Source: Deltaproteobacteria bacterium (GTDB lineage Bacteria > Bdellovibrionota > Bdellovibrionia > Bdellovibrionales > JAMPXM01). From it: a stretch of DNA of 64,000 nucleotides. Under the pieces are notes generated by a model. The model was given only the letters and a program-made list of their open reading frames with translations. It ran no database searches and was not told where the DNA came from. Numbering within the stretch: the stretch's first letter is position 1; each line of letters starts with the position of its first letter. Positions 30,783-35,191 of this stretch are shown in pieces. The stretch is from assembly GCA_017302795.1 (NCBI GenBank), contig JAFLCB010000001.1, positions 558,001-622,000 on the forward strand, given 5' to 3'. The translations under genes and the position numbers were made by a program.

Positions 30783-31439
30783 ATGGCAAAGAAGCAGCAA
30801 AAAAAAGGCAACTCAGGTCAGCCATCGTCTTCGGGCTCGGGACTTGTCCTCTCGACCAGTGAATACTTTGTTCATGCGGTCGAGCTTGCGTTCGAAGAGC
30901 GTCGTTTTCGAACTTTTCCGTCGGCTCAATCTTATCTGGTTCGCCTACTAGAGTACTATGTACCCGCGGGAAATCTTTTTGACGAGGTTGATGAAAATGG
31001 GCGACGCCGCGGTTCGACCCTAGCTGAAACTTATCTAAAGGCGATGAATGCAGAACCGACATTGCGCGCTGATATGCTCAAAAAACTCGCCGACCGGGCA
31101 CTCTATATAGCTGGGTTCTTCAGTGACTCTTTGCAGCGAAAGCTGGTGGACGTCGACTATTACAATGAGATGGGGATGACCGCCTATTCGGTCTTGGCTG
31201 ATTCAAGTCGCGAGGATCTTACAGCGAAAGTTTACCGTGAATACGCCACGAAGTTTTTAAACTTCACTCAAATTTTGTCGACCATTGCGCTTCAGGCGCG
31301 CGTTCAAGACGAAGCCAATATTATGCGGCTTTACGAAACTTACGCGAAAACCGGCTCTGACGTCGCCCGCGAAAAACTTCTCGAGCGCGGGCTGATTGCT
31401 GTCCCTTTGTCCGAACTTAAAAAACCCACAAAACAGTAG
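30783..31439 (+). CDS. Conserved hypothetical protein
   Basis: 218 residues, not recognised. A lysine/serine-rich disordered start (1-20) is followed by a largely helical, charged protein (STSEYFVHAVELAFEERRF, LKKLADRALYIAGFFSDSLQRK). No signal peptide, membrane segment or cysteine pair. It is 32 bases upstream of tatB on the same strand. Upstream (30682-30703) is an 8-bp perfect hairpin (AGGTCGAA/TTCGACCT) between this gene and the M16 peptidase, without a U tract. Confidence 0.7.
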   Translation: MAKKQQKKGNSGQPSSSGSGLVLSTSEYFVHAVELAFEERRFRTFPSAQSYLVRLLEYYVPAGNLFDEVDENGRRRGSTLAETYLKAMNAEPTLRADMLKKLADRALYIAGFFSDSLQRKLVDVDYYNEMGMTAYSVLADSSREDLTAKVYREYATKFLNFTQILSTIALQARVQDEANIMRLYETYAKTGSDVAREKLLERGLIAVPLSELKKPTKQ

Positions 31440-31471: not shown

Positions 31472-31861
31472 ATGTTCGATATTGGCTTTGGGGAAATGAT
31501 TCTTTTGGCGGCGATTGCACTCATTGCGATTGGCCCCAAGCAACTGCCAGACGTCGCCCGGGCGGTCGGCAAACTTATCGGCGAATTTAAACGAACGGTC
31601 GGCGATGTGACATCCACAATGGCCACCGCTAGAAACGAGACCGACAAAGCACTTCGCCAAGTTTCTGATGATCTCGCCGAGTCGATTCGTGCGGCTCAGC
31701 ACGCAAAACCCATTCAACCATTGCCAGATCATCCAGGTGAAGAAGTTGCCGTGGTTCCAGCGGCAGCAAATGTGGTTCCTGCTCCAGCAGCGGTGGCTTC
31801 TGCACCAGCGCCTGAAGTCCCGGTCGCGAGTTCTTCGGTCGGCGAGAAGAAGCCCTCATGA
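31472..31861 (+). CDS. tatB: Twin-arginine translocase subunit TatB
   Basis: 129 residues. The start MFDIGFGEMILLAAIALIAIGP has the TatB features: MFDIG opening, Glu8 in the membrane helix and the GP hinge before an amphipathic helix (KQLPDVARAVGKLIGEFKRT). The C-terminus is an alanine/proline/valine-rich disordered tail. TatB with TatC forms the receptor that binds twin-arginine signal peptides of folded exported proteins. The stop overlaps the tatC start (ATGA). No separate tatA is present here. Confidence 0.92.
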   Translation: MFDIGFGEMILLAAIALIAIGPKQLPDVARAVGKLIGEFKRTVGDVTSTMATARNETDKALRQVSDDLAESIRAAQHAKPIQPLPDHPGEEVAVVPAAANVVPAPAAVASAPAPEVPVASSSVGEKKPS

Positions 31862-32610
31862 GAGACACGCGCGAGGACAATCAGACTCTTGTTGATCATT
31901 TGTCGGAGCTGCGCGATCGACTGGTTAAGTCTGCTTGGGCGATCGCCATCACAACTGCCATTTGTTTTTTCATCTCAGAGCAGCTTTTTAATCTCGTCCG
32001 CCATCCTATTCAGGCATATTTGCCCGAGGGTGGGCTCGTCTTTACAAACCCAATGGATAAATTCATGGCTCACATGAAATTATCGATGGTGGCCGGGGTG
32101 ATCATGGCATGTCCCGCCTGGATTTACCAAGCGTGGATGTTCATTGCTCCTGGGCTTTACGCTCACGAAAAAAAGTATTCACTGACGTTTGTTTTTTCTG
32201 GAATCGTTTTGTTTTTAACTGGTGTCTCATTTGCTTATTTTTTGGTGTTGCCAAGTGCTTTCGATTTTCTCTTTAGCTTTGGCGGGTCGGTCGATAAGCC
32301 ACTGATAACGATTTCCGAATACATGTCCTTTTTCGCAACAATGACGCTAGTATTTGGAGCTTCATTTGAGCTTCCGCTGATACTTGTTGCTCTTGGGGTC
32401 CTCGGCATAGTGTCTAGTTCAACACTTCGAGAAAAGCGTCGTTATGCCATCGTTGCTTTGGCTGCGATCTCCGCGGTCATCACGCCTCCAGATGTTTTAA
32501 GCATGATGATGTTGCTAGTGCCGCTGACGGCCCTTTACGAAATTTCGATTTTGGTGGTGCGCGTTGTAGAACGAAAGCGCGCGCAAACGATCGCCCCGCC
32601 TGCTGTCTAG
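31858..32610 (+). CDS. tatC: Twin-arginine translocase subunit TatC
   Basis: 250 residues with six transmembrane helices. Family landmarks: LVDHLSELRDRLVKSAWAI at the N-terminus (the glutamate of HLSELR helps bind twin-arginine signals), FTNPMDKFMAHMKLSMVAG, PAWIYQAWMFIAPGLYAHEKK, FAYFLVLPSAFDFL, and TPPDVLSMMMLLVPLTALYEISI. Core of the Tat pore together with TatB. Translationally coupled to tatB. Confidence 0.96.
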   Translation: MRDTREDNQTLVDHLSELRDRLVKSAWAIAITTAICFFISEQLFNLVRHPIQAYLPEGGLVFTNPMDKFMAHMKLSMVAGVIMACPAWIYQAWMFIAPGLYAHEKKYSLTFVFSGIVLFLTGVSFAYFLVLPSAFDFLFSFGGSVDKPLITISEYMSFFATMTLVFGASFELPLILVALGVLGIVSSSTLREKRRYAIVALAAISAVITPPDVLSMMMLLVPLTALYEISILVVRVVERKRAQTIAPPAV

Positions 32611-32745
32611 ATGAAATCCTTATGATATCTCTGGCGCGCGCTGCGCCGTGCCTAAGGTTTTAACTCGACTAGAACCGATTTGGTTCGGCAGACTTTAAGT
32701 CGAAAGTCTTGGGCGAAAAGATAGCTCAACGTTGGAGGATTCATC

Positions 32746-32940
32746 ATGGCGGATGTTCTCGTAGTTACGAGTAAGGTTAAGAAGCTGATCAAAGAAAAAG
32801 GCGATTGCAACACTTCAAGCGAAACGGTTGAAGTTTTGTCGAAGGCAATTGAACGCCTTTGCCAAAAAGGTATCGAAAGCGCGAAAGCTGATGGCCGTAA
32901 AACGGTTATGGCTCGCGATATCGTTATCGACCATATCTAA
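32746..32940 (+). CDS. Bacterial histone-fold protein (Bdellovibrio Bd0055/HBb type)
   Basis: 64 residues making a single histone fold with no tails. The start ADVLVVTSKVKKLIKEKG, the long middle helix (TSSETVEVLSKAIERLCQKG) and the end GRKTVMARDIVIDHI follow alpha1-loop1-alpha2-loop2-alpha3; the RKTVMA loop is like archaeal histones. It closely resembles the abundant Bdellovibrio bacteriovorus nucleoid protein Bd0055, known to bind and bend or coat DNA as a dimer. GGAGG sits seven bases before the ATG, indicating high expression. The gene stands alone between tatC and the convergent ligA, with its own terminator. Confidence 0.93.
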   Translation: MADVLVVTSKVKKLIKEKGDCNTSSETVEVLSKAIERLCQKGIESAKADGRKTVMARDIVIDHI

Positions 32941-32946
32941 ACTTCT

Positions 32947-32977
32947 CTCCGAACCTTTGCTGGTTTTCGGAGTATTT
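32947..32977 (+). terminator. Terminator-like hairpin after the histone gene
   Basis: CTCCGAACC pairs with GGTTTTCGGAG (two-base bulge), followed by TATTT. The stem begins 6 bases after the stop codon. The U tract is short, so termination may be partial. Confidence 0.5.
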
Positions 32978-32980
32978 AGA

Positions 32981-33005
32981 AGGCGCAGCGGGCTCGCTTG
33001 CGCCT
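32981..33005 (-). terminator. Hairpin downstream of ligA
   Basis: AGGCGCA and TGCGCCT form a 7-bp stem with further G-C pairs inside; on the minus strand it is followed by TCTAAATA. It lies between the convergent ends of the histone gene and ligA and may stop ligA transcripts from running into the histone gene. The U tract is poor. Confidence 0.35.
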
Positions 33006-33052
33006 GCTGTTCGTAATTCCCGAAACAACTGCAGTCCGCGCAGTTGCGGTCT

Positions 33053-35191
<2,139 letters not shown>

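Follow-up and report, generated by a model that had tools for sequence, protein, structure and literature searches.

A Bd0055-type histone gene in a member of the Bdellovibrionales, and a second, tailed histone encoded by the same genome

The window analysed here, a stretch of 64,000 nucleotides from a genome of the Bdellovibrionales, encodes a 64-aa histone (P0001) that is very probably the orthologue of the well-studied HBb/Bd0055 of the predator Bdellovibrio bacteriovorus, that is, a homodimer that would be abundant in the nucleoid and would coat and bend the chromosome, with no wrapping of the nucleosome type. P0001 adds one member, ordinary for its lineage, to the published "bacterial dimer" histones. 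The modest new point comes from elsewhere in the genome: its second histone (P0002) is not larger but small and tailed, and belongs, as judged by sequence and modelled fold, to a class with a DNA-wrapping member.

Identity, conservation and distribution

The evidence on P0001 itself covers its sequence, the predicted fold of its monomer, its conservation, its distribution and its synteny. In a search of solved structures it matched Bd0055 (8FVX/8CMP) over the full length (E = 2e-30), with 54 of 64 residues identical and no gaps; the ten substitutions are found at positions 3, 20, 21, 25, 28, 29, 37, 40, 43 and 64. The closeness to Bd0055 that an earlier note on this DNA had put forward thus amounts to orthology, and the lineage that it had deduced was also right, the source genome belonging to the same order as Bdellovibrio. 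The protein scores 26.5 bits with the Pfam family PF00808 (cut-off 21.4) and 35.1 bits with the NCBIfam archaeal histone model, which is below the 50-bit cut-off of that model. Five models of the monomer were predicted, with mean pLDDT values from 83.2 (best) down to 62.2 (worst), and the top five Foldseek matches of the predicted monomer are HBb chains. The earlier note had read the 64 residues as a single complete histone fold and had proposed structure prediction as a check; the Pfam match and the leading position of the HBb crystal structures bear out this reading for the monomer.

Judged by its codons, the gene is real, conserved and under purifying selection, since silent differences outnumber replacements against five close relatives (silent:replacement 19:2, 25:2, 32:4 and 23:8 against four relatives of the genus, L003, L004, L005 and L007, and 31:7 against a relative of the family, L010). 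A chance open reading frame is excluded by the match to Bd0055 and the conservation of the orthologues. A phage origin was also rejected: at E 0.001, none of 50,697 phage records was matched in a tblastn search.

An HBb-type gene (70-100% identity) is present in 57 of 59 related genomes, the source genome included. The raw tally was 58/59; since the match in one of them (G008) is only a 225-aa frame of the ZZ type, the HBb-type count is 57. The two genomes in which the HBb-type gene was not found are G008, a member of the window's family that is 93% complete, and G009, which is 57% complete. The gene is perhaps dispensable in places, or these may be assembly gaps; for G008, the explanation is either such a gap or a real loss.

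Contact residues and mode of DNA binding

Usable frames were obtained from 108 of the 109 orthologue loci (107 of 64 aa and one of 63 aa). As starts were assigned by position, eight of these frames have no ATG at that point, one of them beginning with GTG. The loci L003-L031 and L032-L111 overlap as genomes (e.g. L004 and L032), so distinct sequences were counted, and residue conservation refers to the 78 distinct orthologue sequences of 64 aa.

HBb forms dimers of the histone fold, whose DNA binding shows no sequence preference (PMC11317129, PMC10627809). The DNA contacts described in the study that concluded on bending are K12, T23, S24, A25, K52, T53 and R57, plus T8, S9 and K10 (PMC11317129). 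In the orthologues, T8, S9, K10, K12, T23, D49, R51, K52, T53, R57 and D58 are invariant (78/78) and S24 occurs in 77 of 78; position 25 is a serine in P0001, as opposed to the contact residue A25 of HBb, and serine is found there in 18 of the 78. The lysines of helix 1 and the S-K motif are present (S9, K10, K12 and K13 in 78/78, K16 in 77/78), as is the RKT...D motif of loop 2, or RD clamp (R51, K52, T53 and D58, 78/78). As an orthologue of hbb/bd0055, P0001 would be a homodimeric histone-fold protein binding DNA without sequence preference through the faces of its L1-L2 loops (K12, T23, S24, K52, T53, R57), with a second contact at the start of helix 1 (T8, S9, K10). Binding through both surfaces would coat and bend the chromosome, P0001 acting as an abundant nucleoid protein. 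Its dimerisation, abundance, bending and near-essentiality would follow those of the characterised orthologue: in the nucleoid fraction no protein is more abundant than Bd0055, and attempts to delete its gene failed (PMC10627809). By this orthology, the role of major nucleoid protein that the earlier note had in mind is likely for P0001.

Histidine at the place of A48 and phenylalanine at that of S45 are tetramerisation residues (PMC10627809). Since P0001 has neither, an archaeal nucleosomal (hypernucleosome) histone was rejected, and so was a longer helix 2 of the archaeal type, as P0001 aligns with Bd0055 over its full length without insertion. S45, A48 and I61 are the same in P0001 and Bd0055; when the three are changed in Bd0055, DNA ends are brought together (PMC10627809). 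The dimer-dimer residues of the FtF histones (Arg/Asn, HMM positions 48/52) are not found in P0001 either, where the equivalent residues are S45 and D49, and the pattern R...N.R.T....D is absent from the five HBb-type loci tested for it (L154, L155, L157-L159). Devoid of archaeal-type or face-to-face tetramer residues, P0001 should therefore not wrap DNA as a nucleosome.

The "unusual DNA-binding mode" attributed to Bd0055 by the earlier note is contested in print, between a sheath on straight DNA (PMC10627809) and bending (PMC11317129). In the former model Bd0055 dimers encase straight DNA (PMC10627809), and P0001 could likewise be the main packer but form an end-on filament around straight DNA, with no bending (Hocher model). 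This scenario is rather unlikely, although it draws on the crystal structure and FRET of an orthologue that is 84% identical (PMC10627809) and on N-terminal dimer-exchange residues that are largely conserved (V4 in 65/78 orthologues, L5 in 76/78). Against it, T8-S9-K10, the second DNA interface of the bending model (PMC11317129), are invariant in all 78, even if these residues may have other roles.

A second histone and other DNA-organising proteins

The earlier note had suggested looking for a second, larger histone gene. None was found in the genome; a second small one was, of 68 aa. A doublet or ZZ histone was rejected for this genome, as it has only two histone matches, the P0001 gene and P0002. 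A ZZ histone was not found in the assembly, which is 98.6% complete, and the same query matched a frame of at least 150 aa in 19 of 59 genomes. All eight ZZ-type proteins inspected (frames of at least 150 aa) have a cysteine-rich N-terminus.

P0002 consists of a 12-residue lysine-rich tail followed by the fold, with the stop directly after RKTVRGYDF. Its nearest solved relative by sequence is HLp of Leptospira (E = 4.5e-8; HBb, 1.5e-5). The predicted fold gives a target-length TM of 0.94 against HLp (rmsd 1.1), 0.86-0.89 against the archaeal FtF histone HTkC (rmsd 1.1) and 0.77-0.82 against HBb chains (rmsd 1.5-2.5). FtF histones are defined by a predicted tetramer and share the conserved R48, N52, R54, T56 and D61 of the profile (PMC11390915); P0002 has all five, as R54, N58, R60, T62 and D67, with the same spacing. 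The corresponding pattern R...N.R.T....D is found in 20/20 P0002-type proteins of the order and in 3/3 from another family of the class, and in none of the ten HBb- or ZZ-type loci tested. Tails of 4 to 38 residues were tabulated for 19 of the 20 proteins of the order; between them, these tails contain a single acidic residue (the table leaves out L138, which is identical to L137). Over 57 codons, the silent:replacement differences of the P0002 gene are 21:3 and 25:7 against two relatives of the genus and 23:10 against one of the family. P0002 has no Pfam family match at E 0.001; Pfam-based surveys may therefore miss such histones. By sequence and modelled fold, P0002 is assigned to the FtF class, whose known bacterial member, HLp, wraps DNA, its tetramer taking up about 60 bp (PMC12701072).

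The same gene of 554-575 aa lies upstream on the same strand in seven of 14 FtF loci (L112, L113, L114, L115, L117, L118 and L123), where it ends 67-131 bases before the histone gene. In the locus of P0002 (L112) its product is, by motif, a putative GAF/HD-GYP protein. One (L126) of a set of 18 fetched stretches was left out of the analysis.

The FtF class was searched for with a profile built from 13 P0002-type proteins. In the order, FtF members reach at least 86 bits and all others, among the matches listed, at most 54.4 bits; another family of the class supplied three members, with scores of 66-68 bits. Of the order's 140 genomes, 20 have an FtF member (the source genome among them), with 8/13 in the window's family (f1) and 0/66 in the family that includes Bdellovibrio (f9; its G033 has the same coordinates as L060, the record of Bdellovibrio sp. 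UBA4095). The 13 and 66 genomes of these families, like the 19 with a long ZZ-type frame, were counted by hand from per-genome tables. For the class as a whole the count is 23 of 143 (complete per-genome tables underlie this count and that for the order), and all 23 genomes also have an HBb-type gene, the weakest of which (G109) has 61% identity.

The predominant FtF histones of the phylum have been assigned to the class Bacteriovoracia and its bacterial dimers to the class Bdellovibrionia (PMC11390915). Bending and wrapping bacterial histones were described from different organisms (PMC11317129, PMC12701072), and two Leptospira species with one FtF histone and no HU have been set against B. 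bacteriovorus with HBb, Bd3044 and HU (PMC12701072). In the published text consulted no mention was found of both histone classes in one genome, and supplementary tables may list such cases. Interaction of histones with other histone variants is a subject that the HLp paper leaves to later studies (PMC12701072). A tentative scenario is a two-histone chromatin in which the tail-less dimer would bend DNA and the tailed FtF histone would wrap about 60 bp of it, with HU/IHF alongside; mixed dimers and modification of the tail are conceivable. The P0001 gene extends the published family and shows its degree of constraint. With genes for both characterised bacterial histone classes, this one genome offers a natural system in which to ask how a bacterial chromosome is shared between histones that bend and histones that wrap DNA.

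The source genome has four matches to PF00216 (HU/IHF) at E <=0.001, three of which, among the matches listed, are over the family cut-off, and all 59 genomes searched have at least one match over the cut-off. The histone is therefore not the sole DNA-organising protein. The histone-based packaging implied by the earlier note holds as a nucleoid role likely by orthology, but not as that of a sole organiser, given these four matches. It is improbable that P0001 is a minor or specialised DNA binder, with most of the packing in this genome left to HU/IHF and the FtF histone. The HU/IHF-family matches and the FtF-type histone of the same genome would suit such a minor role, yet B. bacteriovorus also has HU alongside Bd0055, and Bd0055 still tops its nucleoid fraction (PMC10627809). 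The presence of P0001 orthologues in 57/59 relatives and the purifying selection also speak against it.

Gene surroundings and comparison with known systems

The ribosome site that the earlier note had seen is indeed there (Table 1), and of 108 relatives, 104 have a Shine-Dalgarno-like core (GGAG, AGGA or GAGG) no more than 20 nt upstream. Its claim that the gene has its own terminator is weak: a consensus scan of 32560-33080 found no canonical terminator (0.8 expected by chance), and what follows the stop codon is a hairpin lacking a proper T run, with only TATTT after it. The hairpin region (48 bases) folds at -15.6 kcal/mol (z -3.5), and the sequences downstream of the gene in five relatives are unlike one another by eye. 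A terminator 3' of the P0001 gene is doubtful.

Table 1 Features of the histone locus and of the second histone gene (positions in the window unless stated otherwise)
Feature	Position	Strand	Basis and remarks
HBb/Bd0055-type bacterial dimer histone gene (P0001)	32746..32940	+	ORF from ATG to TAA, 64 aa
Shine-Dalgarno GGAGG	32734..32738	+	Read from the sequence, 7 nt before the ATG
Stable RNA hairpin 3' of the stop codon	32947..32972	+	Folding; possible terminator without canonical T run
tatA/B/E-family gene	31472..31861	+	PF02416; neighbour, outside histone function
tatC	31858..32610	+	PF00902; ends 135 bases upstream of the histone gene
ligA, NAD-dependent DNA ligase	33053..35158	-	PF01653 and others; convergent neighbour
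Lysine-tailed FtF-type histone gene (P0002), putative class	G000:C10:119279-119482 (L112:4280-4483)		68 aa; same genome, outside the window

The neighbourhood was counted in 80 histone loci from named genome records, of which L051, L070 and L085 hold fewer than 500 bases upstream. In 76 of the 80, the fetched stretch contains a convergent ligA downstream of the histone gene, whereas tatC lies at most 600 bases upstream of this gene in eight; among the unnamed relatives (30 of 57 genomes fetched), every locus with a close upstream tatC belongs to the window's family. Histone-ligA is therefore the conserved order, and the immediate Tat neighbours are a local arrangement characteristic of the window's family. 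The Tat adjacency pointed out by the earlier note is real in the window (PF02416, PF00902) but is not kept across relatives. A functional tie of the histone to protein export through its position behind tatA-tatC is accordingly rejected as highly improbable, despite the common strand, the short distance and the fact that no sigma-70-type promoter was found between tatC and the histone gene (0.4 expected by chance).

Upstream of tatA, an ORF of 218 aa (30783-31439) has no Pfam match at E 0.001; a relative of it is present in 14 of the 80 named loci. One of the named loci, titled Streptomyces griseus (L083; MAG, HRS-HS12-bin-158), has a Bdellovibrio-type histone beside ligA and gatCA, and the record is probably a mislabelled bin.

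Among known systems, P0001 is closest to HBb/Bd0055 of Bdellovibrio bacteriovorus (PDB 8FVX, 8FW7, 8CMP, 9EZZ, 9F0E), of the class of "bacterial dimer" histones, with which it shares its length, 54/64 residues, the RD clamp, the DNA contacts except at position 25 and the lack of tetramer residues. B. bacteriovorus strain kdesi (L066) also has a convergent ligA beside the histone gene, as in the window, but neither tatA nor tatC, which lie upstream in the window, was detected in 12 kb of this strain. The ZZ histones (Bd3044 type; class name from PMC11390915) resemble P0001 in their bacterial-dimer-like histone fold and differ from it in being longer, with an N-terminal zinc-finger domain. The FtF histone HLp of Leptospira perolatii (9QT0-9QT2) is unlike P0001, which does not have the FtF residues, and is the best solved relative of P0002 by both sequence and fold. 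In contrast to L. interrogans and L. perolatii, each of which has one histone and lacks HU and Dps (PMC12701072), the genome studied here encodes P0002 beside an HBb-type histone and genes of the HU/IHF family.
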